Shown here: positions 6,809 to 29,671 of the stretch, one piece after another
Layout of the letters: every line of letters starts with the position of its first letter
Numbering within the stretch: position 1 is the first letter of the stretch
Origin: Flavobacteriaceae bacterium
GTDB lineage: Bacteria > Bacteroidota > Bacteroidia > Flavobacteriales > Flavobacteriaceae
Length of the DNA: 64,000 bases
Direction of reading: 5' to 3'
Assembly (NCBI GenBank): GCA_013001285.1
Contig: JABDMU010000044.1
Location: 1 to 64,000 of the forward strand
Notes under the pieces: generated by a model
The model's input: the letters and a program-made list of their open reading frames with translations, nothing else
What the model was told of the DNA's origin: nothing
Database searches by the model: none
Made by a program: the position numbers and the translations under genes

Positions 6809-6828
6809 ACCACTACAATTTAATATTT

Positions 6829-6850
6829 ACCACAACATCACTACAACATA
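6829..6850 (+). promoter_or_regulatory. Candidate operator: 11-bp-spaced direct repeat upstream of susC
   Basis: Two half-sites, CCACAACAT at 6830-6838 and CTACAACAT at 6841-6849, start exactly 11 bp apart, about one helical turn. A further partial copy (CACTACAA) lies at 6811-6818. The same arrangement occurs at 26990-27010 upstream of the T9SS gene at 27226. It ends 196 bp before the susC ATG and about 60 bp before a possible -7 box. It is likely a regulator binding site; the regulator at 4001 is the nearest candidate. Confidence 0.6.
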
Positions 6851-6910
6851 GACCAAAAAGACCAAATTTCAGAAATGTTAATATTACGCTCTTATTTTTT
6901 CATTATTAGC

Positions 6911-6918
6911 TAATTTTG
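6911..6918 (+). promoter_or_regulatory. Possible -7 promoter box for the susC operon
   Basis: TAATTTTG fits the Bacteroidota -7 form TAnnTTTG. I see no good -33 TTG at the usual spacing, which would fit an activator-dependent promoter. It would give a 5' leader of about 120 nt before the ATG at 7047. Confidence 0.35.
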
Positions 6919-7046
6919 ACTTGAAAATTGCGATTTTCGAAATTAGAGACCTCTCTAAATAAGAATGTATACTTTTTATTGTGGCGAATTTTTGGCAAGA
7001 CTTAAAACTATACAGTAGATTTAACACAAATCAATTCTTTCAATCT

Positions 7047-10000
7047 ATGAAACATCAATTGTTAACCATATTATCGTTTTTAATGCTCTCGTTTGCTGGA
7101 GCTCAAAACTTAACAATTACCGGAGTTGTTACTGAAGCCGACACTGGTTTTCCCATTCCCGGAGTTAATATAATTTTAAAGAATACCTCAACAGGAACAG
7201 TTACAGATTTTGACGGTAACTTTTCTCTTGCAAACGTACCTTCGGGTTCAACCTTGGTATTTAGTTATGTGGGTTTTATTTCCCAGGAAGTTGTTGTTAC
7301 TTCTGCCGAACCTTTGGCCATTCAATTAGCAACCGATGTTGCTCAACTTGATGAAGTTGTCGTGATTGGATATGGTACTCAAAGAAAAAAGGAAGTAACA
7401 GGTGCCGTTGGAATTGTCTCAAGTGAAACTATCGAAGAACTGAAGCCAACTCGAATTGAACAAGCACTTCAGGGGCAAGTAGCTGGGGTACAGATTTCAT
7501 CAAATTCAGGTTCTCCTGGAAGTAGTTCGACAATTAGTATTCGAGGTATCTCAACAAATGGTGATAGCCGACCTCTTATTCTTGTAGACGGGAACGTCAT
7601 TGAAGATTTAAGTGTTATTAACCCTAATGATATTGAAACGGTCAATGTATTAAAAGATGCTACCGCTGGTATATATGGTGTTCGAGCGGCAAACGGTGTA
7701 ATATTAATTACTACCAAATCAGGTCGTAAGGAAATGCCTCTAACTATTGAATATAATGCATACGTTGGACTTCAAGAGACCACTCGGGAAATCCCAGCTT
7801 TAAATGCTACAGAATATGCGCTTTTAGTTAATGAAGCATTCGCGGCAAATGGGGAAAGCCTTCAATTTCCGAATGTATCAGAATTAGGACAAGGCACAAA
7901 TTGGCAGAATGAGGTGTTTCAAACTGCTCCTGTTTTCAATCACGCGATTACCGTTAAGGGCGGAAAGGAGAAATCAACTTATGCTTTCGGACAATCATTT
8001 CTAACTCAAGATGGAATTGTTGGATTAAAGAAAGCAAATTTTACACGTTTTACTAAACGTGGAAGCTACAGTTTAGATTTTCTGGATAACTTTAAATTTA
8101 ATGCAGGTTTAATCTTTACTAATACAAATAGAAGAGCACTTCCTGAATCTGGATTAGGTTCTGTGCTTTTTAACGCCTTAAATAATGACCCAACATTAAA
8201 TGTAAGGGAAAACGATGGAAGTTTTTCAATATCTGAAGGCTTAGGAAATGAAGTGATTAATCCAATTGCTCAAATTGATAATACTTTTAATCGATCTGTA
8301 GTGAATAAACTAAGTGGTAATGCAAGTTTATCTTATAACTTTCTTGATCATTTTACCGCACAATCGAATATTCAGTTCAATTATTCACATGTTAAATCAA
8401 CTACATTTAACCCGATAGCCTTTTTTGGTTCAGGAAAGGTGTTTAACCGGGATAGAAATGAATTGGTCATTTTTAACAATTATTTCAGAGATTATACCTT
8501 CGATGCCTTTTTAAAATATGAGCGCCTTTTTAATGACACTCATAATGTAAAAGTACTTTTGGGTACATCGGTGTTTAAAACCACAGGGGAATTTAGCGGG
8601 CGCGTAGGTCGTGATTTCGTAGGTAATTCTGTTGCCGAAGCTTCCTTAGATGGTGCGGGAGAAATCCAAAATATCTATCCTAATGGCAATGCCACATTTG
8701 ATTCCAGATTACTTTCATACTTCGCTAGAGTTCAATACGATTACAAAGGAAAGTATTTAATTTCTGGTGTCATTAGACGTGATGGATCTACGAAATTTGG
8801 GCCTGAGAATCAGTTTGGTTATTTCCCTTCAGGTTCTATTGGATGGGTTGCTTCAGACGAAAGCTTCCTTGAGGACAGTTCGGTTTTTAATTTCTTGAAA
8901 TTTAGATCGTCTTACGGAATCTTAGGAAATGATAGAATTGGAGATTATCGTTTCGTTTCTATACTTAATGGAGAAGGAACTTATGTTTTTGATGATGAAC
9001 TTTTCTTTGGAATAGCAACTGGTGTTATTTCCAATCCTGAAATACGCTGGGAAAAACAAAAAGCATTTGATGTTGGATTTGACGCTCGTTTCTTAAATAA
9101 CAAATTAGATGTAACTGCAGATTATTTTAAAAGAACAACTGAAGACTTATTGTTTAGTCCTCAAGTTTCAGGAATCCTAGGTGCTTCGTCCCCAGGGTCG
9201 GCCGCACCTACAATTAATGCAGGTACTGTTGAAAATAAAGGATTTGAATTTGCGATTGGTTATTCTGATCAAGTGAACGATAATTTTAAATTCAGTGTAA
9301 AATACAATCTAACCTCTATAGACAATGAGGTGCTTTTAGTTAGTGCTCAAGGTGGTTTTATCGCTGCAGGTGGATTTGGAGTTGGTCAAGATCCTCCAGC
9401 ACGAATGGAAGCTGGTTTCCCTATTGGTTATTTTCGAGGATTTAAAACTGATGGTATCTTTCAAAATCAAGCAGAAGTCGATAGTTACCCTACTTTAAAT
9501 AGTCAGGTACAGCCTGGAGACCTCCGTTTTGTTGATATCAATAATGACGGCGTTATTAATGATGACGATAAGACCAATATAGGTGATCCAATTCCTGATT
9601 TTACCATGGGACTAAATCTAACCTTTGATTATAAGAACTTCGATTTTGGGGCCTATGCTTTTGCTTCAGTAGGCAACGAAATTGTTCGCAATTATGAAAG
9701 AAATCAACCTTTGACCAATAGAAGTATTTATTATCTTGATAGATGGACTGGTGAAGGTACGAGCAATACTTTTCCAAGAGTAACTTCTGGAGCCAATTCG
9801 AATGGTTTATTTTCAGATTTCTTTGTTGAGGATGGCTCTTTCGTGAGACTTCAGAATGTACAATTAGGTTATTCTTTTTCGGAAAAGGCCTTAGAACGAA
9901 TGGGCTTCGATAAATTTAGAATTTATATTTCAGGCAGTAATTTATTTACCTTGACTGAATATAGAGGATATGATCCTACAACTTCTACTGGTGAAGCTAT

Positions 10001-10073
10001 TGGAGGTGGTATTGATTACGGTTTTTATCCAAACCCAAGAACATTTTTATTAGGTATTAATGTAAAACTTTAA
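7047..10073 (+). CDS. susC: SusC/RagA-type TonB-dependent outer-membrane transporter
   Basis: The energy-coupled outer-membrane importer of the glucan locus; with SusD it takes up oligosaccharides. I start it at ATG 7047 (1008 residues) because the protein then begins with a clean signal peptide (MKHQLLTILSFLMLSFAGAQ). An in-frame GTG at 6981 would put 22 unlikely residues in front. Order: signal peptide, carboxypeptidase-regulatory-like domain (about 24-100, GVVTEADTGFPIPGVNI), the SusC hallmark DEVVVIGYGTQRKKEVTGAV, a plug domain (about 105-220) with RPLILVDGNVIEDL, then a long beta-barrel ending in an aromatic-containing strand (PRTFLLGINVKL). It is 9 bp upstream of susD. The family is certain; laminarin as substrate follows from the downstream enzymes. 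Confidence 0.96.
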   Translation: MKHQLLTILSFLMLSFAGAQNLTITGVVTEADTGFPIPGVNIILKNTSTGTVTDFDGNFSLANVPSGSTLVFSYVGFISQEVVVTSAEPLAIQLATDVAQLDEVVVIGYGTQRKKEVTGAVGIVSSETIEELKPTRIEQALQGQVAGVQISSNSGSPGSSSTISIRGISTNGDSRPLILVDGNVIEDLSVINPNDIETVNVLKDATAGIYGVRAANGVILITTKSGRKEMPLTIEYNAYVGLQETTREIPALNATEYALLVNEAFAANGESLQFPNVSELGQGTNWQNEVFQTAPVFNHAITVKGGKEKSTYAFGQSFLTQDGIVGLKKANFTRFTKRGSYSLDFLDNFKFNAGLIFTNTNRRALPESGLGSVLFNALNNDPTLNVRENDGSFSISEGLGNEVINPIAQIDNTFNRSVVNKLSGNASLSYNFLDHFTAQSNIQFNYSHVKSTTFNPIAFFGSGKVFNRDRNELVIFNNYFRDYTFDAFLKYERLFNDTHNVKVLLGTSVFKTTGEFSGRVGRDFVGNSVAEASLDGAGEIQNIYPNGNATFDSRLLSYFARVQYDYKGKYLISGVIRRDGSTKFGPENQFGYFPSGSIGWVASDESFLEDSSVFNFLKFRSSYGILGNDRIGDYRFVSILNGEGTYVFDDELFFGIATGVISNPEIRWEKQKAFDVGFDARFLNNKLDVTADYFKRTTEDLLFSPQVSGILGASSPGSAAPTINAGTVENKGFEFAIGYSDQVNDNFKFSVKYNLTSIDNEVLLVSAQGGFIAAGGFGVGQDPPARMEAGFPIGYFRGFKTDGIFQNQAEVDSYPTLNSQVQPGDLRFVDINNDGVINDDDKTNIGDPIPDFTMGLNLTFDYKNFDFGAYAFASVGNEIVRNYERNQPLTNRSIYYLDRWTGEGTSNTFPRVTSGANSNGLFSDFFVEDGSFVRLQNVQLGYSFSEKALERMGFDKFRIYISGSNLFTLTEYRGYDPTTSTGEAIGGGIDYGFYPNPRTFLLGINVKL

Positions 10074-10082
10074 GACGTTACT

Positions 10083-11537
10083 ATGAAAAAATTAAATATT
10101 AAATTCTTCGCTATTTTATTACTGGTTGCATTCTCATGTAGTGATGATTTTGTAAACGTAGATTCTCCTTTCGAAAACTCTGAAGACTTCTTCAACTCAG
10201 AAGAAGATTATCAAAGTGCGCTGATAGGAGCCTATGATCCACTACAATCAACTTATCTTAATGTTCTGCTTGGTGAAATTGCATCAGACAACACCTTAGC
10301 TGGTGGTGAAAGTGCAATTGATGTGCCGGGAATTCAGGAAGTTGATGATATGATTCATACACCTATTAATCAACAATTACGTGATATTTGGAGTTGGATG
10401 TATGGCGGTGTCAATCGCACCAATTTCATCATGGAATTTAAGGATAAAACAGATTTTCCAAATAAGAATGCTGTTCTTGCTCAAACTCGTTTTTTAAGAG
10501 CTTATTATTATTTTGAACTTGTTAAATGGTTTGGTGATGTTCCTTTTAAAGTGGATGCCCGAATTCAATTTGGCGATCAATTTAGTATCCCAAGAACGCC
10601 AAAAGCAGAGGTATACGCACAAATAGAAGAAGATCTCATTTTTGCAGCAGCGAATTTACCTTACATCCAACCACAAACTGGTCGAATTACTAAAGGGGCT
10701 GCTCAAGCATTACTTGGAAAAGCATACCTCTATCAAAATAAATTTACACAAGCTGCGACCGTACTTGAAGATCTTATAAATAATGGACCACATGATTTGA
10801 TTGCTGATTACAGCACCATGTTCGAAAATGATAATGAAAATAATATTGAATCTGTTTTCGAAGTACAATATACCGATCTTGAAGGTGCAGGCTTTGGTTG
10901 CCTCCAATGTAGTGAAGGAAATGTTGCTGTAGGATTCAACGGAATAAGAAATTATACTGGACCACTATTTGAATCTGGCTTTAGTTTCAATGTGCCTACT
11001 CAAGAAGTAGTTGATGCCTTTGAACCTGGAGATGTTCGTTTAGAAACAGCTATTTTGGATATCGATCAATGGGCTGCAGATACTGGTGCAACTTTTAGTA
11101 TAGGTTTTGAACATACAGGATATTTCAACAGAAAATACATATCAAGACAAGGCGACCTGAATACAGGTGACGCCAATTTGACCAATCCAAATAATTACAG
11201 GTCAATTCGCTTTGCCGATGTGCTTCTTATGGCTGCTGAGGCCTTGAACAGAGGAGGAATAGATGATGGAAGAGCGCAACTGTATTTAAATAGAGTTAGA
11301 ACAAGAGCGATGTTGCCAGAGGTTATGGCAACTGGAACAACCTTAACCAATGCTATTTATCAAGAAAGACGTGTTGAATTGGTTGGTGAAGGACATCACT
11401 TTTTTGATCTTGTTAGAACAGGTCGTGCTGCTGCTGAGATCGATGGGTTTCAAGCAGGAAAACATGAATTATTCCCAATACCATCAATTGAAATTCAATT
11501 GGCCGGTAATCAATGGGAACAAAATCCAGGATATTAA
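10083..11537 (+). CDS. susD: SusD/RagB-type surface glycan-binding lipoprotein
   Basis: A 484-residue lipoprotein that forms the lid of the SusC transporter and binds glycan at the cell surface. The lipobox ends at Cys19 (LLLVAFSCSDD), followed by acidic residues that resemble the surface-export signal of Bacteroidota lipoproteins. Typical RagB/SusD features are the tetratricopeptide-like helical part (FLRAYYYFELVKWFGDVPF, about 138-157) and the C-terminal segment YQERRVELVGEGHHFFDLVR (about 427-446). It follows susC by 9 bp and precedes the modular lipoprotein by 10 bp, so the three are one operon. Confidence 0.96.
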   Translation: MKKLNIKFFAILLLVAFSCSDDFVNVDSPFENSEDFFNSEEDYQSALIGAYDPLQSTYLNVLLGEIASDNTLAGGESAIDVPGIQEVDDMIHTPINQQLRDIWSWMYGGVNRTNFIMEFKDKTDFPNKNAVLAQTRFLRAYYYFELVKWFGDVPFKVDARIQFGDQFSIPRTPKAEVYAQIEEDLIFAAANLPYIQPQTGRITKGAAQALLGKAYLYQNKFTQAATVLEDLINNGPHDLIADYSTMFENDNENNIESVFEVQYTDLEGAGFGCLQCSEGNVAVGFNGIRNYTGPLFESGFSFNVPTQEVVDAFEPGDVRLETAILDIDQWAADTGATFSIGFEHTGYFNRKYISRQGDLNTGDANLTNPNNYRSIRFADVLLMAAEALNRGGIDDGRAQLYLNRVRTRAMLPEVMATGTTLTNAIYQERRVELVGEGHHFFDLVRTGRAAAEIDGFQAGKHELFPIPSIEIQLAGNQWEQNPGY

Positions 11538-11547
11538 AATTTAGACT

Positions 11548-13578
11548 ATGAAAAGATTTTATCAATTAATAACGTGTTTTTTAGTACTCACTTTAATGGG
11601 ATGTACTGAAGACGATAGAGGAACGAACTTCGTTGATGAGGTTGCCGCTCCTGCAAATATTTCAATAACATTCGATATTACCCAAGATAATTCTGGTCTT
11701 GTTGCTATGACTCCAGGTGGAGAAGGTGCAACTGGATTTAGAGTTGCCTTTGGTGATGGATCAGGTAATCCCGTCGACTTAAATCCAGGCGAAAGCACAG
11801 AGCATACCTATGCTGAAGGCACATATAACGTAAAAGTTATCGCCACTGGAATAAACGGACTAACAACTGAGTTTATTCAACCTTTAACCGTTTCCTTTCA
11901 AGCACCTGAAAACCTAATGGTTACAATTTCACCTGTTATTGGTGATGTGTTTTCAGTTGATGTTTCTGCCACTGCAGATCTTGAAGCCTATTTCGAATTT
12001 TATCCAGGTGAATCAATGGAAGAAACACCTATTCAATTTATGGAAGGTGAAACAATAACGTATACCTATGCGGCAGTTGGTGATTATGAAGCTCGAGTGG
12101 TCGCGCTTTCTGGTGGTGCTGCAACAACTGAATATACCGAAACTATTTCAATTGTAAATCCGTTATTACTACCTATTGATTTTGAAGATCCAACATTAAA
12201 TTTCTCATTTGTAGATTTTGGAAATGTGTCTTCTTCAGTTGTTCCGAATCCAGATATGTCTGGAGAAAATACAAGTGCTACTGTTGGACAATCTGTAAAA
12301 CCAGCAGGTGCTGAAGTTTGGGCTGGAACATTCTTACAATTAGATGACCCTATCGATTTTTCTACTTTAAATAATATAAAAGTAAACGTCTGGTCTCCAG
12401 CAAGTGGCATAACGGTGAAATTAAAACTAGAGAATGCTACCGATGATACAATTGCTACAGAAGTTGATGTTACAAATACGGTATCAAACGCATGGGAAAC
12501 CTTAGTTTTTGATTTTAGTACATCTGACCTATCTCAGGACTATCAGAAAGTAGTTTTGTTTTTCGATTTCGGAAACCCTGGAAACGATAGCACTTATTAT
12601 TTTGATGATATTGATTTAACTCAATCTATTGCCGATGTTTTTGAGCTCTTCGAAAACTTTGAAGGAGCTACACCGCCATCGTTTATTGACTTTGGAAATA
12701 TTGGGGCAACACAAGTTGTTGCCAACCCAGCTCCAGACGGAAATAATGGAACGGCAAGCGTTGCGCAATTCACAAAAGCAAATGGCGCCGAAGTATGGGG
12801 AGGAACATTCTTTGAATTAAACAATCAAGCCATAGAGTTTGCGGCTACCAAGAAAATGCGATTCAAATCATGGTCTCCTACCGCTGGAACTGTGGTCAAA
12901 TTAAAAATAGAAAATGCTGACGCAAGTGTGACTCATGAAGTTGATGTCAATACAAGTGTTGCCAACGCGTGGGAAACCCTAACATACGATTTTATTGATG
13001 CTCCTGTTGCAACTTATGTGCGTGTGGTTGTGTTCTATAACTTCGGAACTCCAGGTGATGGCACCGTATACTATTTTGATGAAATGGAAGTTGGTGAAGA
13101 CGCATTGGTCTCAACCATTCCTCCATTGCCGGTTGAGGATTTCGAAGGAGCGCCTCCCGCATTTATTTCTTTTGGAAATATTGCAGATACTCAAGTAATC
13201 GCTAACCCTAACTCAAGTGGATTAAATACAACGGCTAATGTCGCCGAATTGTTTAAAACTGCTGGTTCTGAGGTTTGGGCTGGAACCTTCTTCGAAGTTG
13301 GAGCGCCTTTAGACCTCAATAACTATAGCAATATTAGAGTGCTTACACACTCCCCGACAGCAGGGATCGTCGTGAAGCTAAAATTAGAAAACGCAGACGC
13401 AAGTATAACTCATGAAGTAGATATTGTAAATTCCTTCGCCAATAATTGGGAAGAACTCGTTTATGATTTTAGTGAAGCACCTGCAGCCGACTATGTAAGA
13501 ATTGTTATTTTCTTCGATTTTGGAACTCCTGGAAATGACTCTTCATATTATTTTGATGAAATTCAATTGACAAATTAA
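11548..13578 (+). CDS. Modular surface glycan-binding lipoprotein: two PKD-like domains + three tandem CBM-like modules
   Basis: A 676-residue lipoprotein (Cys19 in LTLMGCTEDD) with no recognisable catalytic motif. After two PKD-like domains (about 30-200) it carries three tandem copies of a module of about 150 residues, at roughly 207-355, 364-512 and 528-676. Each starts with an acidic-aromatic entry such as PIDFEDPT or VEDFEGAPPAF, includes FGN, a variant of AEVWAGTF, VKLKLENA and AWETLVFDF, and ends with YYFDDIDL-like residues. The fold looks like a beta-sandwich carbohydrate-binding module. Its place directly after susD fits a surface glycan-binding protein (SGBP) that captures long laminarin chains. 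Function is inferred; the triplication is visible. Confidence 0.8.
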   Translation: MKRFYQLITCFLVLTLMGCTEDDRGTNFVDEVAAPANISITFDITQDNSGLVAMTPGGEGATGFRVAFGDGSGNPVDLNPGESTEHTYAEGTYNVKVIATGINGLTTEFIQPLTVSFQAPENLMVTISPVIGDVFSVDVSATADLEAYFEFYPGESMEETPIQFMEGETITYTYAAVGDYEARVVALSGGAATTEYTETISIVNPLLLPIDFEDPTLNFSFVDFGNVSSSVVPNPDMSGENTSATVGQSVKPAGAEVWAGTFLQLDDPIDFSTLNNIKVNVWSPASGITVKLKLENATDDTIATEVDVTNTVSNAWETLVFDFSTSDLSQDYQKVVLFFDFGNPGNDSTYYFDDIDLTQSIADVFELFENFEGATPPSFIDFGNIGATQVVANPAPDGNNGTASVAQFTKANGAEVWGGTFFELNNQAIEFAATKKMRFKSWSPTAGTVVKLKIENADASVTHEVDVNTSVANAWETLTYDFIDAPVATYVRVVVFYNFGTPGDGTVYYFDEMEVGEDALVSTIPPLPVEDFEGAPPAFISFGNIADTQVIANPNSSGLNTTANVAELFKTAGSEVWAGTFFEVGAPLDLNNYSNIRVLTHSPTAGIVVKLKLENADASITHEVDIVNSFANNWEELVYDFSEAPAADYVRIVIFFDFGTPGNDSSYYFDEIQLTN

Positions 13579-13583
13579 GAGCT

Positions 13584-15266
13584 ATGAAAAATTTTAAATA
13601 TTTAGTATTTGTATGTATGTTATCCTTAATTGCAGGTTTCTTTTTGACCTCATGTCAGGATGAAAATCAAACATTTGGTGATATTGTTGCACCTTCAAAC
13701 CTAAGCGTATCCTTTGATATTCAAGGTGTAGATGCCATGAATCCAAATGGTGATGGAACCGGATTTGTAAGTTTCACTGCTACAGCAGACAACGCTATTA
13801 CATATCGTTACGTTTTTGGTGACGACTCATCTAATGAGGTTGCGCCTTCTGGACAAGTGACGCATCGTTTTACGAACAATGGTTTAAATACATATACTGT
13901 AACCGTTATTGCTTCAGGTACAGGTGGTGTAACAACCTCAACATCTGTAAATGTTGAAGTGTTTAGCTCATTTAACCCAATTGAAATAAAGAACCTATTA
14001 ACAGGTGGGCCATCAAATTCGAAAACTTGGTATTGGAACGCACCAGTTCCGGGGCATTTAGGTGTAGGTCCTTTAGATGATGTTGAACCTATTTGGTATG
14101 CAGCTGTACCTTATGAAAAAGAAAGTGTTGGCTGTCTTTATGAAGATCAGTTGATCTTTTCACAAGACGATAGTGAAAATGTGAATTTTGAGTTGATAAA
14201 TAACGACAACACCTATTTTCATCGTTTTGAAGTTGAAGACGAATTAGGACAACCTAATCCTGGTGAAGATACATGCTATCCTTACGAAGACTTCGGAATG
14301 ACAAACGTTTCTTTTGCACCTTCTTCATCTGGAATTGATGAAACCATCTCAACGCAAACATCCTTTACTTTGCCAAATAACGGCTTCATGAGTTATTTCT
14401 TAGGAAATAATGATTATGAAATACTATCCATTTCAGCAACAGAAATGCATGTGAGAATCGTACAGACAGAACCAAGCGGATTTCAGGTGGCTTGGTATCA
14501 GAAATTCTCAACCCAAGATCCTTTAGGCGATAATGGCCTTGTTTCGATTTATGATAATTTAATTTGGTCTGATGAATTTGACACCGATGGTGCGCCAAAC
14601 CCAGCAAATTGGGTATATGATCTACAGGATGGATGCCAAATAGATCCGAATTTATGTGGTTGGGGTAATGGTGAAGAGCAATGGTATACTAATGACCCAG
14701 ACAATGTTATTGTAGAAGGTGGTATATTAAAAATAACGGCAATAAAAGAACCAACTGGAACTCGAGATTATTCTTCGGCACGAATAAAAACCCATGATTT
14801 ATTTGATTTTAATACAGGGCGTGTTGAATTTAGTGCAAAATTACCAGCAAGTGTAGGTACTTGGCCTGCGCTTTGGATGTTAGGCTCAAATAATGATGAA
14901 GTTGGTTGGCCAGCTTCAGGTGAGATCGATATTATGGAACATTCTCCGTTTTTTAATCCAAATGAAGTGGTTGGAACGGTGTATTGGGAAAATGAAGGAT
15001 CTGTAGCTTCATTTGGTGAATCAATTGATGTTTCAAATTTAAGTTCAGAGTTTCACACCTATACATTAGAATGGAGACCTGATGAAATTCTAATGGCAGT
15101 TGACGGCGAAATTTACTTTACTTTCGCTTATGACGATAGTTTACCATTTGTAGAAGACTTTTTCTTAATAATAAATTTAGCCATGGGCGGAGACTTTGGT
15201 GGGGATATTGACCCAGGCTTCACGCAAGATACATTCGAAGTTGATTATGTAAGGGTTTATCAATAA
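13584..15266 (+). CDS. GH16 endo-beta-1,3-glucanase (laminarinase), surface lipoprotein
   Basis: A 560-residue lipoprotein (Cys24 in FFLTSCQDE) that should cut internal beta-1,3 bonds of laminarin. It has an N-terminal PKD-like domain (about 40-130), a middle region similar to those found in SusE/SGBP-like proteins, and a GH16 domain (about 325-560). The catalytic motif GEIDIMEH gives nucleophile Glu447, Asp449 and acid/base Glu452; this form with the extra residue (ExDxxE) is that of the laminarinase/lichenase branch. Flanking conserved residues are WPALWMLG and a C-terminal FEVDYVRVYQ. It is 5 bp downstream of the modular lipoprotein. A strong hairpin terminator follows it. Confidence 0.93.
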   Translation: MKNFKYLVFVCMLSLIAGFFLTSCQDENQTFGDIVAPSNLSVSFDIQGVDAMNPNGDGTGFVSFTATADNAITYRYVFGDDSSNEVAPSGQVTHRFTNNGLNTYTVTVIASGTGGVTTSTSVNVEVFSSFNPIEIKNLLTGGPSNSKTWYWNAPVPGHLGVGPLDDVEPIWYAAVPYEKESVGCLYEDQLIFSQDDSENVNFELINNDNTYFHRFEVEDELGQPNPGEDTCYPYEDFGMTNVSFAPSSSGIDETISTQTSFTLPNNGFMSYFLGNNDYEILSISATEMHVRIVQTEPSGFQVAWYQKFSTQDPLGDNGLVSIYDNLIWSDEFDTDGAPNPANWVYDLQDGCQIDPNLCGWGNGEEQWYTNDPDNVIVEGGILKITAIKEPTGTRDYSSARIKTHDLFDFNTGRVEFSAKLPASVGTWPALWMLGSNNDEVGWPASGEIDIMEHSPFFNPNEVVGTVYWENEGSVASFGESIDVSNLSSEFHTYTLEWRPDEILMAVDGEIYFTFAYDDSLPFVEDFFLIINLAMGGDFGGDIDPGFTQDTFEVDYVRVYQ

Positions 15267-15280
15267 ATTATTAGTCTATT

Positions 15281-15319
15281 AAAGATCGGTTTATCTTGGA
15301 ATTAAACCGATCTTTTTTT
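15281..15319 (+). terminator. Rho-independent terminator inside the PUL
   Basis: Stem AAAGATCGGTTTA (15281-15293) pairs perfectly with TAAACCGATCTTT (15303-15315) around a 9-nt loop, and is followed by a T-run. It separates the susC-susD-SGBP-GH16 block from the phosphorylase and remaining enzymes. It is likely a partial terminator or an operon boundary. Confidence 0.85.
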
Positions 15320-15369
15320 ACAAAAGGATCTTATAAGACAACTTTAAAGTTTAGGCAAGATAAAATTAT

Positions 15370-18906: not shown

Positions 18907-18912
18907 TGCACA

Positions 18913-20202
18913 ATGAATCTAAATTCAAACATAGCAGCATTTTACATATTGTTTTTGCTGCTTGTTTCGTGCAATCAAAAAAATAAAGATAAAAAGCCTA
19001 TGCAGCCTCAGAAGAAAATAACTGCTAAAGACATTTTAGGGAATCCTGAATATTTAGCGATTTCCTATGGTGGGTATCGAGAAAAAACCAGAGATATTCA
19101 ACCTACTATTCCTGAATTAAAGGAAGACCTTAAAATTTTAGCTGTGATGGGAATAAAAGTTTTACGCACCTATAATGTTCAACTCCCCCACGCTACTAAT
19201 ATTTTAAAAGCCATACGCGAACTAAAGGAACAAGATCCATCCTTTGAAATGTACGTGATGCTTGGAGCATGGATAGATTGTGAAAATGCATGGACAGATT
19301 TAGCTCCAAATCATGAAAATGAAAGTGAAAATAATGCCTCAGAAATTGAAAGAGCAGTGGGATTAGCTAATAAATATCCGGAGATCGTTAAGATCTTGGC
19401 CGTTGGGAATGAAGCTATGGTGAGATGGGCTACAAGCTATTATGTGCAGCCTAATGTGATTCTTAAATGGGTAAATTATTTGCAAGATCTCAAGAAAAAT
19501 AACGAACTTCCAAAAGATTTATGGATAACAAGTTCTGACGACTTTTCTTCCTGGGGAGGTGGAGATCCAAGTTACCATACCCCAGATCTGGAAGCATTGA
19601 TACATGCGGTTGATTACGTTTCAATGCACACTTACGCTATGCATAATTCACATTATAATCCTCAATTTTGGTTGGTACCACAAAACGAATGGGATCACAA
19701 TCCTTCCGACAAAATAGAAGCCGCAATGTTACGAGCAAGAGATTTTGCGGTTGCTCAATATCAAGGCGTTAAGAATTATGTTGAAAGTCTCGGTATTGAA
19801 AAAGATATCCATATCGGTGAAACCGGTTGGGCTACAGTATCCAATCAACAATATGGTGCCGATGGATCTAAAGCAGCTGATGAATTTAAATCGGGAAAAT
19901 ACTACCAACTCATAAGAGAATGGACCAAGGAGGCTAATATCTCCTGTTTTTATTTCGAGGCTTTTAATGAACCTTGGAAAGATGCATCTAACCCCTTAGG
20001 ATCTGAAAATCATTTTGGACTTTTCACCGTTGATGGTAAAGCTAAATATGCACTTTGGGATTTGGTTGACCAACAAACATTTAAAGGTCTCGGCAGAAAC
20101 GGAAAACAAGTTACTAAAACCTATAATGGTAACATAAATAAACTCATGGAGGATGTAAATCCTCCTCCTATTGAATATGATATGTTTGCATTTAATCGTT
20201 AA
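18913..20202 (+). CDS. GH17 beta-1,3-glucan hydrolase, lipoprotein (first of tandem pair)
   Basis: A 429-residue lipoprotein (Cys20 in LLLVSCNQK) of glycoside hydrolase family 17, a (beta/alpha)8 enzyme acting on beta-1,3-glucans. Catalytic residues are visible: acid/base Glu167 in AVGNEAM and nucleophile Glu303 in IHIGETGWAT. Other conserved parts are LRTYNVQ, SMHTYAMHN and FNEPWKD. The next gene is a clear paralogue, sharing AKDILGNP/AEDILGNP, SYGGYR and the whole barrel. Marine flavobacterial GH17 enzymes of this kind are known endo-laminarinases. It lies 6 bp after the phosphorylase gene and 6 bp before its paralogue. Confidence 0.92.
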   Translation: MNLNSNIAAFYILFLLLVSCNQKNKDKKPMQPQKKITAKDILGNPEYLAISYGGYREKTRDIQPTIPELKEDLKILAVMGIKVLRTYNVQLPHATNILKAIRELKEQDPSFEMYVMLGAWIDCENAWTDLAPNHENESENNASEIERAVGLANKYPEIVKILAVGNEAMVRWATSYYVQPNVILKWVNYLQDLKKNNELPKDLWITSSDDFSSWGGGDPSYHTPDLEALIHAVDYVSMHTYAMHNSHYNPQFWLVPQNEWDHNPSDKIEAAMLRARDFAVAQYQGVKNYVESLGIEKDIHIGETGWATVSNQQYGADGSKAADEFKSGKYYQLIREWTKEANISCFYFEAFNEPWKDASNPLGSENHFGLFTVDGKAKYALWDLVDQQTFKGLGRNGKQVTKTYNGNINKLMEDVNPPPIEYDMFAFNR

Positions 20203-20208
20203 GAGTTA

Positions 20209-22023
20209 ATGTTTAAAAATCTTAAAATATCTCTTTTAATACTAGTTTCACTTGTTCTTGGATGCACAGGAAATGATGGGTCAAGTGTGAACGCTGAGGA
20301 TATTTTAGGTAATCCCGATTATTTGGCGTTTTCTTACGGTGGTTATAGGCAAAATACCAGAGAAATTCAACCAACAATTGATGAGCTCAAAGATGATATG
20401 AAGATATTATCTGCAATGGGAGTAAAATTAATACGCACCTATAATACGAACGATTATCCTCAAGCGGCTAATCTGCTAAAAGCTATACATCAATTAAAGG
20501 AGGAAGATTCAAATTTTGAGATGTACGTTATGCTAGGCACTTGGATTGAATGTCAAGGTGCTGGTACAAATAATAAAGATCACAGGGTCGGCAATATTGA
20601 AAAAAATACAGGAGAAATTGAAGCCGCCATTGAAATGGCTAAGAAATATCCTGATATTGTAAAAATTATTGCCGTTGGAAATGAAGCTATGATACAATGG
20701 GCAGTAAAATACTTCGTTTACCCTAAAGTAATTTTAAAATGGGTGAATCATCTTCAAAATTTAAAAAAAGCTGGTGAATTGCCTTCAGATTTATGGATTA
20801 CAAGTTCAGATAATTTTGAGTCTTGGGGCGGAGGTTCTAAAAGCTATCAAACCGAAGATTTAGTAGCGTTAATAAAAGCTGTCGATTATATTTCGTTGCA
20901 TACATATCCTTTTCATGATACATTACACAATCCATATTTTTGGGGCACTCCAGAAGGAGAATCTAACAATTCTGATCTTGAAAAAGTGGAGTCAGCAATG
21001 CTAAGGGCAACCAACCACTCTATTACTCAATATCAAAATGTTGCAAATTATATTTCTGAATTAGGATTAGAAAAAAGTATTCATATTGGAGAAATAGGCT
21101 GGGCAACAGTTGATAATGTTTCCTTTGGAAAAAATGGGACCCATGCTGCTGATGAGTTAAAACAAAAGTTCTTTTATGATAACATTCGGGCATGGACAAA
21201 CAAAAATGGTATTACTTGTTTCTATTTTGAGATATTTGATGAAAAATGGAAAGATGCCATGAATCCCTTAGGTTCTGAAAATCATTTCGGATTAATCAAT
21301 CTAAAAGGACAAGCAAAGTTTGCCATCTGGAATTTGGTTGATCAAGGTGTTTTTAAAGGATTGACAAGAAACGGCGCTCCCATCTCTAAAACCTATGGCG
21401 GTGATAAGGCTGCAATGATGGCAGATGTTCACTTGCCACCGCTAAAAAGTGAACTGGGAATATTAGAAATAAAAACCATCAATACAAATTACACCACAGG
21501 TCAAATCATAAAAGAACATGATTATGTGATCCTACATGATACTTTTGATGCAAACAAATCTTCTAATATGACCTACCCTAGTGGTATATTGAAATTGAAT
21601 CCTTGGGAAGGGACCTGTAACATGAGCATGTCTGAAGATAAAACCATAAAAGTCGTCACTGGAGTTGGTGAATGGTGGGGCTGTGCTCTGGAAATACAAT
21701 CAGGGGCTATTGGTGAAAATTTGTCAAACTTTACTAATGGAACTTTAAATTTTGATATTAAAGGAACGACTAAATCTTCCTTTAATATTGGTTTTCAAAC
21801 AGGTTCAATTGCAACAGGTGATCAGATAAACAATTACATCACGTTCGGAAAAGATGACCCTTATAATATAAAAGATACATGGACGCGTTTTTCTATTCCT
21901 ATAACTGAGTTATCAGATAATGGAAAAATGGATAATATCAACAGTTTATTGTTTTTAAAAGGCGATAAAGATTTTGACGGTAAAGAGATTTTTATAAAAA
22001 ATGTTCACTATTCTCAAAAATAA
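20209..22023 (+). CDS. GH17 lipoprotein with C-terminal CBM-like domain (second of tandem pair)
   Basis: A 604-residue lipoprotein (Cys19 in LVLGCTGND) with a GH17 barrel at about 27-410, paralogous to the preceding gene. Acid/base is Glu159 (AVGNEAM) and nucleophile Glu295, in EIGWAT where its neighbour has ETGWAT. It has an extra C-terminal beta-rich region (about 440-604: VILHDTFDAN, WEGTCNMS, GTLNFDIKG, DTWTRFSIPI) that looks like a jelly-roll carbohydrate-binding domain; the preceding gene lacks it. The pair probably arose by tandem duplication and then one copy gained or the other lost the binding domain. Its end is 4 bp upstream of the next gene's ATG. Confidence 0.9.
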   Translation: MFKNLKISLLILVSLVLGCTGNDGSSVNAEDILGNPDYLAFSYGGYRQNTREIQPTIDELKDDMKILSAMGVKLIRTYNTNDYPQAANLLKAIHQLKEEDSNFEMYVMLGTWIECQGAGTNNKDHRVGNIEKNTGEIEAAIEMAKKYPDIVKIIAVGNEAMIQWAVKYFVYPKVILKWVNHLQNLKKAGELPSDLWITSSDNFESWGGGSKSYQTEDLVALIKAVDYISLHTYPFHDTLHNPYFWGTPEGESNNSDLEKVESAMLRATNHSITQYQNVANYISELGLEKSIHIGEIGWATVDNVSFGKNGTHAADELKQKFFYDNIRAWTNKNGITCFYFEIFDEKWKDAMNPLGSENHFGLINLKGQAKFAIWNLVDQGVFKGLTRNGAPISKTYGGDKAAMMADVHLPPLKSELGILEIKTINTNYTTGQIIKEHDYVILHDTFDANKSSNMTYPSGILKLNPWEGTCNMSMSEDKTIKVVTGVGEWWGCALEIQSGAIGENLSNFTNGTLNFDIKGTTKSSFNIGFQTGSIATGDQINNYITFGKDDPYNIKDTWTRFSIPITELSDNGKMDNINSLLFLKGDKDFDGKEIFIKNVHYSQK

Positions 22024-22027
22024 ACAA

Positions 22028-23044
22028 ATGAATAGCAAAATTTTATTCTACTTCTTGTTGTTTAGTATGACATTCATGTCATGTAAAAGTAGTTCAGAAA
22101 TTGATGACGTAAGCATTTCTGGAAGGCAATTATTGGTGAACGCCAAGCCCTATATTATAACTGGAATTTGTTATCATCCTGTGCCTGTCGGAAGCGATTT
22201 AAGAAGCTTTGAAACTATCGATGAAGACCTTGATCTAATGATCGAAGCTGGAATTAATACGATTAGAGTCTATGAGCCTATTCAAGATATCAACGTTCTC
22301 GATAAAATAGATGCTGCAGGCTTAAAAGTTATTATTGGATTTGGGTATAGTGATCCAAAAGACATATATAATATACATTCTGGAAATTTTATCAATTATG
22401 TTAATTCGTATAAAACCCACAATGCAATCCTCATGTGGGAATTAGGTAACGAATACAATTACCACCCGGAATATTTTGATGGTGATTTAAAAAATTGGTA
22501 TAAAGAAATGAATAATGCCGCAGCACTTATCCAAGAAGCAGATCCAAATCACCCCGTAGCAACTGCTCATGGTGATTTACCAGACGCATTGGCACTTTCT
22601 TTAAGTCCGAATATAGATGTTTGGGGAATGAACGTCTATCGCATGGTTGAACCAGAAACAATTTTTACACAATGGGAAGCCGTGAGTTCTAAACCAATGT
22701 ACTTATCGGAAGTAGGAGCAGATAGCTATATGGCGATACCAGCAGAGGGTTTTGAACAAGGCGAAAATCAAAAAGCTCAGGCACATGCCAATAAAATTAT
22801 TTTAGAAAAGACATTTAACAGCAATGGCATTTGTTTAGGCGCAACCTTATTCTCATTTACTGATGGTTGGTGGAAGGCAGGTGAGAATGATGTACAAGAT
22901 GTTGGAGGCTGGGCTCCTGAAGGGAGTGGCGTTCCATATGACAGGGTGCCAAATGAAGAATATTGGGGCATAGTTGATATTCATCGAAACAAAAAAGAAA
23001 CCTTTAATATAGTTAAAGACATTTATCTGAGACAAAAAAATTAA
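22028..23044 (+). CDS. Clan GH-A TIM-barrel glycoside hydrolase lipoprotein, family unclear
   Basis: A 338-residue lipoprotein. I start at ATG 22028, which gives a proper lipoprotein signal (Cys19 in MTFMSCKSS); an in-frame ATG at 22001 overlaps the previous gene and adds nine residues. The fold reads as a clan GH-A barrel: ITGICYHPVPVG, INTIRVYEP, then Glu142 in WELGNEYNY as probable acid/base and Glu228 in MYLSEVGADSY as probable nucleophile. It resembles the TIM-barrel part of GH2 and also fungal GH72 glucanosyltransferases, but it lacks the GH2 N-terminal sandwich domains. Possible roles are a beta-glucanase or transglycosylase acting on laminarin. I cannot assign the family by eye. Confidence 0.75.
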   Translation: MNSKILFYFLLFSMTFMSCKSSSEIDDVSISGRQLLVNAKPYIITGICYHPVPVGSDLRSFETIDEDLDLMIEAGINTIRVYEPIQDINVLDKIDAAGLKVIIGFGYSDPKDIYNIHSGNFINYVNSYKTHNAILMWELGNEYNYHPEYFDGDLKNWYKEMNNAAALIQEADPNHPVATAHGDLPDALALSLSPNIDVWGMNVYRMVEPETIFTQWEAVSSKPMYLSEVGADSYMAIPAEGFEQGENQKAQAHANKIILEKTFNSNGICLGATLFSFTDGWWKAGENDVQDVGGWAPEGSGVPYDRVPNEEYWGIVDIHRNKKETFNIVKDIYLRQKN

Positions 23045-23047
23045 CTA

Positions 23048-24544
23048 ATGAAAGCAAACATTTTTTATCTATCTTTTATTTTAATGGTGTTTATTATGAG
23101 TTGTAATGAAGAATCAAATCAGTTACAAGTTGAAGTTTATGAAACTTCTGCTGGTGGTAATAAGCTCAGCAAAGTTGAACCGTTTTTAAAGCCCAATGAA
23201 AATGATCTTGTGGTCATTAAACTTTTACCTGACGAAGAATTTCAAACCATAACTGGATTTGGAGGTTCATTTACAGAGTCTTCAGCTTATTTATTAAATA
23301 AACTCTCGGAAGAAAATAGAAATAAAGTTTTAGAAGCCTATTTCGGTGATGAAGGTGCACGCTATTCCTTGACCAGAACTCATATAAGTTCTTGTGATTT
23401 TTCATTGAATAATTATACCTATGCACCCGTTGAAGGTGATCTGGAATTAGAACATTTTTCTATCAAGGAAGACATGGATGATCTTGTTCCAATGATTAAA
23501 GACGCCATGAAGATCTCAAACGATGGCTTTAAAATTATTTCATCACCTTGGACTGCACCGCCTTGGATGAAAGACAACAAACACTGGGTTGGTGGAAAAT
23601 TATTACCCGAATTTTATGGGACCTTCGCCCTATTTTTCACGAAATATTTAGACGCTTATAAAGCCGAAGGTATTGACATATGGGGTTTGACTCCTGTTAA
23701 CGAACCTCATGGCAATGGTAATAACTGGGAAAGCATGCATTTTTCTCCTGAAGAAATGACGGATTTTGTACAAAATCATTTAGGCCCAAAATTAGAGGCT
23801 GAAGGAAAAGGAGGAGTTAATATCCTGGGTTATGATCAAAACAGAGCTGGAATTAAAGAATGGGTTGATGTGATGTTTAAAAATGAGGCATCATCAAAAT
23901 ATTATGCAGGAACGGCAATTCATTGGTACGAAAGTACTTTTGATTTTTTTCCTGAACAATTACAATATGGACATAACAAAGCGCCAGATAAGTATTTAAT
24001 TCAAACTGAGGCCTGTGTAGATTCTGAAGTGCCTAAATGGAAAGATGATGCTTGGTATTGGAGAAAAGAAGCTACTGATTGGGGCTGGGATTGGGCTCCA
24101 GAAGAGCAAAAGCATTTACATCCGAAATACGCACCTGTCAATCGATATGCCAGAGATATCATCGGTTGTTTAAATAATTGGGTAGATGGATGGGTAGACT
24201 GGAATATGGTCTTAGATAAACAAGGAGGTCCAAATTGGTTTGAAAACTGGTGTGTGGCTCCAGTAATTGTTGATCCCATAAATGACGACGTATATTTCAC
24301 TCCTATTTACTATACCTTATCACATTTTAGTAAATATATTAGACCAGGAGCAGTAATAATTGGGTTAGAGAATTCAGATGACAGTTTAATGGTCACAGCA
24401 GCTAGAAACCCTGATGGTTCCATAGCGGTAATTGTATTTAATCAGGATAACAAAGAAAAACACCTTTCCCTTGCATTTGGTGATAAATCAAAATATGTAA
24501 CAATCAGTTCCCAGGCGATTCAAACGATAATAATACCTGCATAA
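23048..24544 (+). CDS. GH30 family beta-glucosidase/beta-1,6-glucanase, lipoprotein
   Basis: A 498-residue lipoprotein (Cys19 in FIMSCNEES) of family GH30. It has the family's ITGFGGSFTESSAY entry, SPWTAPPWMKDN, acid/base Glu219 in TPVNEPHGN and nucleophile Glu321 in LIQTEACVDS, plus the C-terminal beta-sandwich shared by GH30 enzymes (IAVIVFNQDN region). In related marine laminarin loci, GH30 removes the beta-1,6-linked glucose side chains, so debranching is the likely role; GH30_1-like beta-glucosidase activity is the alternative. It is 3 bp downstream of the previous gene and 10 bp upstream of the symporter. Confidence 0.9.
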   Translation: MKANIFYLSFILMVFIMSCNEESNQLQVEVYETSAGGNKLSKVEPFLKPNENDLVVIKLLPDEEFQTITGFGGSFTESSAYLLNKLSEENRNKVLEAYFGDEGARYSLTRTHISSCDFSLNNYTYAPVEGDLELEHFSIKEDMDDLVPMIKDAMKISNDGFKIISSPWTAPPWMKDNKHWVGGKLLPEFYGTFALFFTKYLDAYKAEGIDIWGLTPVNEPHGNGNNWESMHFSPEEMTDFVQNHLGPKLEAEGKGGVNILGYDQNRAGIKEWVDVMFKNEASSKYYAGTAIHWYESTFDFFPEQLQYGHNKAPDKYLIQTEACVDSEVPKWKDDAWYWRKEATDWGWDWAPEEQKHLHPKYAPVNRYARDIIGCLNNWVDGWVDWNMVLDKQGGPNWFENWCVAPVIVDPINDDVYFTPIYYTLSHFSKYIRPGAVIIGLENSDDSLMVTAARNPDGSIAVIVFNQDNKEKHLSLAFGDKSKYVTISSQAIQTIIIPA

Positions 24545-24554
24545 AAAAAAACGT

Positions 24555-25985
24555 ATGTCACATTACAAAACAGCAGCAAAAGATAGAGTCCCTCTTAAAT
24601 CGAAAATGGCTTTTGGATCTGGTCAATTAGTACTCAATTTATTACCTGGAGCACTCGGTTTTTTCATGTTCTTTTTACTTACTGCTTTTGGAATGGATCC
24701 GTTTTTAGCTGGTTTATTAGGTGGACTACCGAGAATATTTGATGCACTTACCGACCCAATTATGGGCTTTATTTCTGATAATACCAAATCACGATGGGGC
24801 CGTAGAAGACCTTATATTTTTATTGGTGCCATTTTAAGTGGGATATTTTTTGCTCTTTTATGGCAACTTGACGAAAATAATTCTCAAACGTACAATTTTT
24901 GGTATTTTTTAATAATGTCTATGGTGTTTTTAATTGGAAATACCATGTTTGCAACGCCTTTGGTTGGACTGGGCTATGAAATGACTTCCGATTATAATGA
25001 ACGAACACGTTTAATGGCATTTGGAAATACAATGGGGCAAATCGCATGGATGATCGTGCCTTGGTTTTGGGTCATTATTGCAGACCCTGATATCTTTGAA
25101 AATCAGGCTCAAGGCGTTCGGCAATTGTCTTTATTTGTAGCAGGTGCTTGTATCATTCTCGGAATATTGCCAGCTATTTTCTGCAAAGGTATTGATGCTT
25201 CACATATGGAGAATAGAAAAAAGATTTCACTAAATACAATGTTTTCAAATTTAAAAGACCTATTTAAAGGGATTGTAGAAGTTTCAAAGAATAAACCTTT
25301 TATGAAACTTTGTGGAGCTACTTTTCTAGTCTTTAACGGCTTTCAAATGGTGGCTTCATTTAGTGTTTTTATCATCGTTTTTTATCTTTTTAATGGCGAT
25401 TATGGGGACGCTGGAACTTGGCCAGCATGGTTTTCTACTATAACCGCAGTATTAACAGCATTTATTGTGATACCCATAATATCCTGGATGGCTAATAAAT
25501 GGGGGAAACGAGAGGCGTTTATTATTTCTACCGTTTTATCCATCATTGGTTATATACTAAAATGGTGGGGTTTTAATCCTGAGAATCCTTGGCTCATGTT
25601 TATGCCCATTCCATTTATCGCTTTTGGATTAGGTGGCTTATTCACCTTAATGATGAGCATGACCGCTGATGTATGTGATTTAGATGAATTGAATAACGGA
25701 ATGCCACGTAAAGAAGGAACCTTTGGTGCAATTTATTGGTGGATGGTTAAACTTGGTCAGGCATTAGCTCTTGTATTAGGAGGTCTGGTCCTGAAACTAG
25801 TGGGCTTTATTTCGGATGCAGAAACACAAACCTTAGATACTATGACCAATTTACGGATAGCAGATATTGTTATACCATCTGTTACTGCCGCATTGGCCAT
25901 ATTGGTCATGTGGAAGTATAACCTATCTGAAGATAGAGCCAAAGAGATAAAAGAAAAATTAATTGAACGAAGAGGTGAATTGTAA
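24555..25985 (+). CDS. GPH-family (MelB-like) sugar:cation symporter
   Basis: A 476-residue, 12-TM major-facilitator protein of the glycoside-pentoside-hexuronide:cation symporter family. The diagnostic cytoplasmic signature is present near residues 58-83 (DALTDPIMGFISD followed by SRWGRRRPYI). It should move laminari-oligosaccharides or glucose from periplasm to cytoplasm, feeding the cytoplasmic phosphorylase and GH17 encoded on either side. It is 10 bp after GH30 and 28 bp before the cytoplasmic GH17. Confidence 0.9.
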   Translation: MSHYKTAAKDRVPLKSKMAFGSGQLVLNLLPGALGFFMFFLLTAFGMDPFLAGLLGGLPRIFDALTDPIMGFISDNTKSRWGRRRPYIFIGAILSGIFFALLWQLDENNSQTYNFWYFLIMSMVFLIGNTMFATPLVGLGYEMTSDYNERTRLMAFGNTMGQIAWMIVPWFWVIIADPDIFENQAQGVRQLSLFVAGACIILGILPAIFCKGIDASHMENRKKISLNTMFSNLKDLFKGIVEVSKNKPFMKLCGATFLVFNGFQMVASFSVFIIVFYLFNGDYGDAGTWPAWFSTITAVLTAFIVIPIISWMANKWGKREAFIISTVLSIIGYILKWWGFNPENPWLMFMPIPFIAFGLGGLFTLMMSMTADVCDLDELNNGMPRKEGTFGAIYWWMVKLGQALALVLGGLVLKLVGFISDAETQTLDTMTNLRIADIVIPSVTAALAILVMWKYNLSEDRAKEIKEKLIERRGEL

Positions 25986-26013
25986 TTATAACACATTTAA
26001 TAGATAAGAAAGT

Positions 26014-26898
26014 ATGTCAATAAGAGGAGAAAAAATAATGGCTCTTTCGGGTATTGATTTTGCCAATAAAACCGAAATAGGAATAAAAAATTTATTCAAG
26101 CGATTGTTAAAAAACGGTATGCATGGTTTATGCTTTAGCCCCTATTTAGAGGGTCAAGAGCCTCAATCACAACTAACGGATGAACAAATTAGACGCCGGA
26201 TGAAAATCATAAAACCTTATACCAAATGGATCCGTTCTTTTTCATGTACCGATGGCAATGAGAATATCCCTCGTATCGCTCATGAATTTGGTATAAAAAC
26301 CTTAGTCGGAGCTTGGTTAGGTGATGATCCAGATATTAATAAGCGAGAAATACATAACTTGATTCAATTAGCTAAAGAAGGTTATGTTGATATTGCTGCT
26401 GTTGGAAATGAGGTCATGTACAGAGGCGATTTAACCGAAAATGAGCTTTTAGATTTTATGTATGAAGTAAAAAAGGCCATCCCAGATGTTCCAGTTGGCT
26501 ATGTAGATGCCTATTATGAATTTACCGACCGTCCAAGAATTACTGATGCTTGCGACGTGATCCTAGCAAATTGTTATCCGTATTGGGAAGGTTGCCCACT
26601 TGAATATTCTTTGGTATATATGAAAGAAATGTATAACCAGGCCGTTAAGGCTGCCAATGGAAAAAAAGTGATCATTTCAGAAACAGGATGGCCAAACCTT
26701 GGAAGTGCTTTTGAAGGTTCGATACCTTCATTTGAGAATGCTATAAAATATTTTATCAACACACAACTATGGTCTAAAGAAGATGATATAGATGTTTTTT
26801 ATTTTTCCTCGTTCGATGAACCTTGGAAGGTAGGTGATGAAGGTGATGTTGGAGCGTATTGGGGGTTATGGGATAAAAACGAAAACCTAAAATATTAA
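26014..26898 (+). CDS. Cytoplasmic GH17-family glycosidase
   Basis: A 294-residue GH17 protein that, unlike the two GH17 lipoproteins, has no signal peptide. Catalytic residues: Glu133 in AVGNEVMY (acid/base) and Glu223 in IISETGWPN (nucleophile); FSSFDEPWK near the end is also typical. Without a signal it probably works in the cytoplasm on imported short beta-1,3-glucosides, next to the GPH symporter. ATG 26038 (MALSGID) is an alternative start with the same conclusion. It is the last gene of the plus-strand PUL run; a 327-bp gap follows. Confidence 0.85.
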   Translation: MSIRGEKIMALSGIDFANKTEIGIKNLFKRLLKNGMHGLCFSPYLEGQEPQSQLTDEQIRRRMKIIKPYTKWIRSFSCTDGNENIPRIAHEFGIKTLVGAWLGDDPDINKREIHNLIQLAKEGYVDIAAVGNEVMYRGDLTENELLDFMYEVKKAIPDVPVGYVDAYYEFTDRPRITDACDVILANCYPYWEGCPLEYSLVYMKEMYNQAVKAANGKKVIISETGWPNLGSAFEGSIPSFENAIKYFINTQLWSKEDDIDVFYFSSFDEPWKVGDEGDVGAYWGLWDKNENLKY

Positions 26899-27225
26899 TA
26901 AATAGAGCCTTAACTAAAATGATGGCATTAAATAAAGTTGAACTCTTTTTGTAACAATAATGTTAATTAGCCATACGTACTATTTTTTTCCACAACATTA
27001 CCACAACATACATGTTCATCGATTAATTAATACAGCTATTAGCCCTATAAGTTTTGCTTAAAATGCCCCTAAATTAATCTCGTTTTTATCTTATATGTAT
27101 AAAAACAGCAACTTTTATAGGCTTGTATGCCTTTTGTTGCATTAAAATTAACTTATATGTAAAAATTAACCCTTATTTTTACGAAGTTAATAATCCTTCT
27201 ATTAAAAAACTAAATTTTACAGATT
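26899..27225. other. 327-bp intergenic region: regulatory, non-coding
   Basis: No open frame of note. It contains the 11-bp-spaced direct repeat at 26990-27010, then AT-rich DNA with a near-promoter sequence (TAAGTTTTG at 27048-27056, one base off the usual spacing) and a leader of roughly 150 nt. ATTAGC followed by TTTTG and CTT is shared with the susC upstream region (6905-6918 and 27038-27056), though with different spacing to the repeat. Confidence 0.5.
26990..27010 (+). promoter_or_regulatory. Candidate operator: 11-bp-spaced direct repeat, second copy
   Basis: Half-sites CCACAACAT at 26990-26998 and CCACAACAT at 27001-27009 are identical and start 11 bp apart. They match the pair upstream of susC and lie 215 bp before the ATG at 27226, similar to the 196 bp seen there. 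The two secreted proteins downstream are therefore probably co-regulated with the glucan locus. Confidence 0.6.
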
Positions 27226-28149: not shown

Positions 28150-28176
28150 GTTTTTGTTATAATTAACTTTGAACTT

Positions 28177-28213
28177 AAGCCATGTTGAGTTTATCAATAT
28201 GGCTTATTTTTTT
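28177..28213 (+). terminator. Rho-independent terminator after the first T9SS gene
   Basis: Stem AAGCCATGTTGA (28177-28188) pairs with TCAATATGGCTT (28194-28205) with one G-T pair, followed by a seven-T run. It begins 28 bp after the stop codon at 28149. Confidence 0.8.
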
Positions 28214-29619: not shown

Positions 29620-29645
29620 ATTGACTTTTTTAACCATAAAATATG

Positions 29646-29671
29646 AAGCCACTTTTTCAAGTGGCTTTTTT
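29646..29671 (+). terminator. Rho-independent terminator after the second T9SS gene
   Basis: AAGCCACTT (29646-29654), loop TTTC, AAGTGGCTT (29659-29667), then a T-run. It separates the T9SS gene from the LacI regulator 34 bp further on. Confidence 0.85.

Follow-up and report, generated by a model that had tools for sequence, protein, structure and literature searches.

Laminarin is a major pool of fixed carbon, and its turnover is driven by the polysaccharide loci of marine Flavobacteriia. The window analysed here, a stretch of 64,000 nucleotides from a Flavobacteriaceae contig, carries such a locus next to a sensor-regulator gene (4001), followed by two genes for T9SS-secreted proteins. The first-pass annotation had noticed the same direct repeat upstream of susC and of the T9SS gene pair, and had read it as the site of a dimeric activator that places both in one regulon. 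Is this repeat a shared operator, and if so, which protein would bind it, and how?

Two copies of one repeat and the genes behind them

The two copies and the genes concerned are as follows.

6830–6849, + strand: copy A, direct tandem CCACAACAT-CA-CTACAACAT (full sequence CCACAACATCACTACAACAT)
26990–27009, + strand: copy B, direct tandem CCACAACAT-TA-CCACAACAT (full sequence CCACAACATTACCACAACAT)
4001–6808, + strand: sensor-regulator, the putative binder (Pfam Y_Y_Y and GerE only)
7047–10073, + strand: susC (TIGR04056, SusC/RagA), ATG at 7047
10083–26898, + strand: rest of the laminarin locus (Pfam, NCBIfam)
27226–28149, + strand: T9SS-secreted protein, first gene after operator B (TIGR04183, PF18962)
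28176–28206, + strand: intrinsic-terminator-like hairpin between the two T9SS genes
28243–29619, + strand: T9SS-secreted protein with two binding-module-like domains (TIGR04183)

Both copies lie exactly where they had been annotated, with half-site starts 11 bp apart in each, and the distances given to the start codons (197 bp to the ATG at 7047 and 216 bp to that at 27226) are borne out. The annotation had found the repeat in no other intergenic region that it read; these are indeed the sole matches in the window even at up to 3 mismatches, and both have 0 mismatches. When the 2.88 Mb genome was scanned for CYACAACAT-N2-CYACAACAT, the same two sites and no others were returned at 0–1 mismatch, the next-best matches having 2; with two sites only, the genome does not hold many random hits. 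A generic tandem search of the genome gave no further site above control. A solo half-site stands at 33705 in the window, without a partner.

Besides susC, the laminarin locus encodes susD, a PKD surface protein (11548), GH16, GH149, GH17s, a GH2-like protein, GH30 and an MFS transporter. The frame at 15370–18906 has no Pfam match and is identified by NCBIfam as a GH149 1,3-beta-glucan phosphorylase (1778 bits). The products of 27226 and 28243 are T9SS cargo, scoring 54.9 and 53 bits for the type A sorting domain (TIGR04183) against a cut-off of 23. The PKD surface protein 11548 has a domain repeated three times, to which both domains of 28243 are related, as they are to PDB 8qx6, a PKD domain-containing protein; a secreted glycan-binding role would fit these relationships. 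The kinship with a protein of the laminarin locus also speaks for the two-promoter operator proposed below.

Conservation and anatomy of the putative operator

At up to one mismatch, the tandem is present in 52 of 397 genomes of the family, clearly above a reversed-pattern control. In other genomes 29 loci were read, and almost every one shows one of two contexts: the tandem is flanked by a 4001 homologue and susC, or lies upstream of a T9SS-type protein, often just after a homologue of the GH17 gene at 26014. It thus recurs in the same two places as in the window and is not absent from orthologous loci. That T9SS promoters of other genera carry the site too supports the annotated claim of a shared activator. 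All nine named family loci inspected have the tandem (9/9; Psychroserpens, Olleya, Kriegella, Eudoraea, Urechidicola, Winogradskyella, Oceanihabitans and others), and it was not found in two Sphingobacteriia homologues of about 30% identity.

We located the tandem, using the generic half-site form CCNNNACA, in the regions downstream of 160 regulator homologues, a first set of 110 and a second set of 50 that was read afterwards as a check on the first. It starts 10–45 nt past the regulator stop codon in 100/110 regions of the first set (44 at offset 22); in the second it lies at offset 19–33 in 44/50 and within 45 nt in 46/50. Over both sets, the tandem is no more than 60 nt from the stop codon in 149/160, typically at 20–26 nt, leaving about 7% of the homologues without a tandem near the regulator. 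The full strict architecture is found in 112/160. At susC, the closest relatives mostly have CCTATACA plus CCACAACA rather than CCACAACAT twice; what is conserved is the architecture, not the exact letters. One relative (locus L020, 1501–1531) has three consecutive half-sites at 11-bp spacing before susC, not two.

Among lags from 7 to 35, lag 11 is the best in the core family (z=16) and lag 32 the second, because a third direct half-site sits 21 bp upstream of the tandem. A CCNNNACA element at this position (−21; −20 in the window) is found at a score of at least 4/5 in 99/149 loci, and in the homologue loci it usually lies 1–3 nt past the regulator stop codon. Another apparent element, at −52, lies inside the regulator coding sequence and was attributed to protein conservation.

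Downstream of the tandem there is a second group of sites in the opposite orientation. Inverted half-sites TGTNNNGG were observed 131 times against 11.7 expected, at offsets of 124–127, 131–139, 145–151 and 156–161 with few beyond, and the gaps between these ranges are near-empty; the clusters, at about 125, 137, 148 and 160, are helical steps, and the typical distance is about 137 bp. Alignment of the loci on these half-sites reveals an inverted tandem with the consensus TGTAT-N6-TGTTGNGG / TGTATRTTTTTTGTTGNGGT. In 120 aligned loci, TAnnTTTA, which we take to be the −7 box of Bacteroidota promoters, is conserved 39 bp past the start of the second inverted half-site. The corresponding elements in the window are:

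6809–6817, + strand: third (distal) direct half-site ACCACTACA, 20 bp before the tandem and directly past the regulator stop
6966–6984, + strand: promoter-proximal inverted tandem TGTATACTTTTTATTGTGG, 11 bp apart, the second half-site with one core mismatch
7016–7023, + strand: −7 box TAGATTTA (TAnnTTTA), at +39 when counted from where the second inverted half-site starts
27124–27142, + strand: promoter-proximal inverted tandem TGTATGCCTTTTGTTGCAT, the second half-site having lost GG
27174–27181, + strand: −7 box TATTTTTA, again at +39 when counted in this way

As called mechanically, the susC open reading frame would start at 6981, before the −7 box is reached. Searched for in the genome with a pattern learned from relatives, the composite of inverted tandem and −7 box gave two sites and no more (controls 0): 6966–7023 before susC and 27124–27181 before 27226. 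These are the same two genes that the tandem precedes, and so the two promoters share two separately recognised elements. A class-wide search for the strict composite gave 6 matches, 4 of them with the typical sequence and from the same family as the window; T9SS-type promoters have the inverted tandem and −7 spacing in 21/23 cases. The inverted half-site without GG makes operator B weak at this point, and no clear third half-site was found there.

The repeat is therefore one arm of a larger, conserved operator. Of the dimeric activator site first proposed, an activator-type site shared by both genes has held up; the simple dimer has not, since a complete promoter carries some five half-sites, divided between a direct set and an inverted one close to the promoter. 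Coregulation of 27226 with susC is well supported by these shared elements, and algal laminarin would probably switch on the susC operon and 27226 jointly. The annotation had placed both T9SS genes in the laminarin regulon, which is less certain for 28243 because the terminator-like hairpin at 28176–28206 separates it from 27226. A second such hairpin follows 28243 at 29645–29668; both stems are of the AAGCCA...TGGCTT type.

The sensor-regulator as the likely binder

The regulator at 4001 consists of a signal peptide, a propeller-type sensor, Y_Y_Y, one hydrophobic stretch, which we read as a membrane helix, and a GerE/LuxR-type HTH (28.7 bits for GerE against a curated cut-off of 23.5). Pfam finds in it neither a histidine kinase nor a receiver or AraC domain. 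It is the only full-length homologue of its kind in the genome; apart from it, the sensor has just one partial relative there, a 1300-aa frame (G000:C64:56265-58700) that is probably a hybrid two-component protein.

The annotation had named 4001 as the nearest candidate binder, a suggestion that is strengthened by the position of the tandem behind 149/160 homologues and by its covariation with the recognition helix. Where the helix has R, base 5 of CCACnACA is A in 73 cases and T in 5; where it has K, the base is A in 1, T in 12 and G in 2 (Fisher 1e-11). In short, R goes with A in 73/78 and K with T or G in 14/15, and this covariation was replicated in the second homologue set. A second helix position behaves similarly, T in VE-x-KRY occurring with G at base 5 in 4/6 cases against 0/143 otherwise. 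Because relatives are not independent, we controlled for kinship with trees built from the regulator protein without its HTH. The best tree yields 9 independent contrasts, of which 7 go in the predicted direction and 0 in the opposite one; well supported branches carry only 2–3 of the independent changes. One genome (G044) offers a single example in trans: its regulator (L109) has helix K, and a T9SS promoter about 18 kb away (L158) has TGTAGTGG, that is, the K-type half-site CCACTACA.

A divergent paralogue clade (L247–L266; 30–37% identity) keeps the 11-bp tandem (lag-11 z=13, again the best of lags 7 to 35) with a different half-site, TACGTCA or TACATCA. Here, too, the half-site follows the helix: TACGTCA goes with T in 9/9, and TACATCA/CACATCA with I/L in 7/7. 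These paralogues also have an inverted copy about 100 bp downstream, at a near-fixed distance, which changes in step with the half-site. An extra direct half-site is seen at +66 in 9/16.

Given the helix covariation and the matching changes in the paralogue clade, the protein that binds these sites is, with high probability, the 4001 product. Two other explanations for the repeat deserve consideration. Short repeats can arise by chance or from low complexity in AT-rich intergenic DNA, and at a tolerance of 3 mismatches, 3 of 100 shuffles of the window did give two or more matches; the real pair shows no mismatch at all, however, and conservation, phasing and covariation all speak against such an origin, which the orthologous loci already refute, so that we consider it practically negligible. 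Another regulator might instead bind the repeat, with the adjacency to 4001 being incidental, and the LacI gene at 29705 is indeed close to operator B. Yet the site trails a 4001-type gene in 149/160 homologues, and its bases track the 4001-type recognition helix in two clades. The half-sites, in direct and inverted tandems, do not resemble a palindromic LacI operator, in line with the doubts that the annotation had about LacI, and with just two occurrences per genome a global factor is unlikely. Binding by a different regulator is thus highly improbable.

A proposed two-arm operator and its relation to known systems

How might 4001 act from here? We propose that it is a single-chain transmembrane sensor-regulator whose periplasmic part would sense laminarin oligosaccharides and whose cytoplasmic LuxR/GerE-type HTH would bind half-sites of the form CCNNNACA. 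Each target promoter would offer 2–3 half-sites that point downstream, with some 200 bp between the tandem and the start codon, and, immediately before the core promoter, two inverted ones at 11-bp spacing, 39 bp ahead of TAnnTTTA. Ligand binding in the periplasm would let the HTH domains of one oligomer bind both arms, and the resulting DNA loop would position them beside RNA polymerase. As only the promoters of susC (the laminarin operon) and 27226 have the two-arm design in this genome, they would form one regulon. What the DNA and protein sequences show directly is the elements themselves, how they are conserved and phased, and how they covary with the helix; binding, activation, ligand and looping we infer from this. 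Overall, it is very probable that the repeat is the distal operator arm for 4001 at two promoters of a single regulon.

Within this proposal, the loop is the simplest reading of arms that lie at helical steps, and paired arms in helical phase are indeed what we see; 4001 thus probably acts through a loop. It might also bind the two arms independently, the distal one as an accessory and the proximal one as the activator site. The helical phasing may also reflect face-specific contacts with RNA polymerase. Against independent binding stand the inter-arm distances, which fall in helical steps with near-empty gaps, and the paralogue clade, whose inverted copy stays almost constantly some 100 bp away. 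Independent binding is a serious possibility, though we judge it the less likely one.

A broader reading, which we hold to be somewhat likely, is that a family of kinase-less propeller/LuxR sensor-regulators in the Flavobacteriaceae acts through an operator whose two phased arms form a loop, and follows a readable protein–DNA code in which two helix positions set base 5 of a half-site spaced at 11 bp. If this is true, genome sequence could be enough to predict polysaccharide regulons, and with them T9SS cargo encoded away from the main operon. A conserved operator with a partial recognition code would make the regulons of LuxR-annotated head regulators predictable, tie T9SS-secreted proteins of unknown role to laminarin use, and allow activation through a helically phased loop to be tested at promoters of Bacteroidota.

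With the NarL/LuxR (GerE) family, 4001 has the GerE-type HTH in common. NarL-type sites are usually described as inverted heptamers, whereas here a direct tandem is combined with a distant inverted tandem. The covarying VE-x position would align with a base-contacting valine of NarL; a sequence search with the HTH of 4001 found no structurally solved relative, and none of NarL type.

In the open-access papers searched, we found no description of a 4001-type operator, and its novelty is provisional; a literature search for CTACAACAT returned unrelated papers only. LuxR is often the first gene of the cluster in laminarin loci of marine Flavobacteriia, according to one report (PMC13188888), and the passages searched in the laminarin papers mention no operator, target promoter or regulon.

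The sensor part of 4001 is of the same propeller/Y_Y_Y periplasmic kind as that of the HTCS regulators of Bacteroidota, being similar to the HTCS sensor structures 3v9f and 4a2l. Unlike an HTCS, 4001 has no histidine kinase, receiver or AraC domain, and it does not belong to that class. HTCS motifs are described as direct repeats with sites of 12–16 bp and spacers of 5–9 bp (PMC3878776).

A further close parallel is offered by the SusR-like regulators of Bacteroides (SusR BT3705, SusR2-4), for which direct repeats with boxes 67 or 77 bp apart have been predicted (Ravcheev et al. 2013, PMC3878776). The two systems have in common a membrane sensor, a C-terminal HTH, the lack of a kinase, a gene beside susC/susD and activation (proposed for 4001), as well as operators built from direct repeats whose half-sites share one face of the DNA (PMC3878776). 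In this broad sense 4001 is SusR-like, a one-chain sensor with an HTH and no kinase that adjoins susC/susD. Compared by architecture, the operators differ: here an 11-bp tandem is joined to an inverted promoter-proximal pair in place of boxes 67 or 77 bp apart. The SusR-type spacing was not found in the core family, which repeats mainly at 11 bp; the extra half-site at +66 is confined to the paralogue clade and may be a link to the 67-bp spacing of SusR. By analogy, 4001 would work like SusR, and we do not file it as an orthologue of B. thetaiotaomicron SusR (BT3705).
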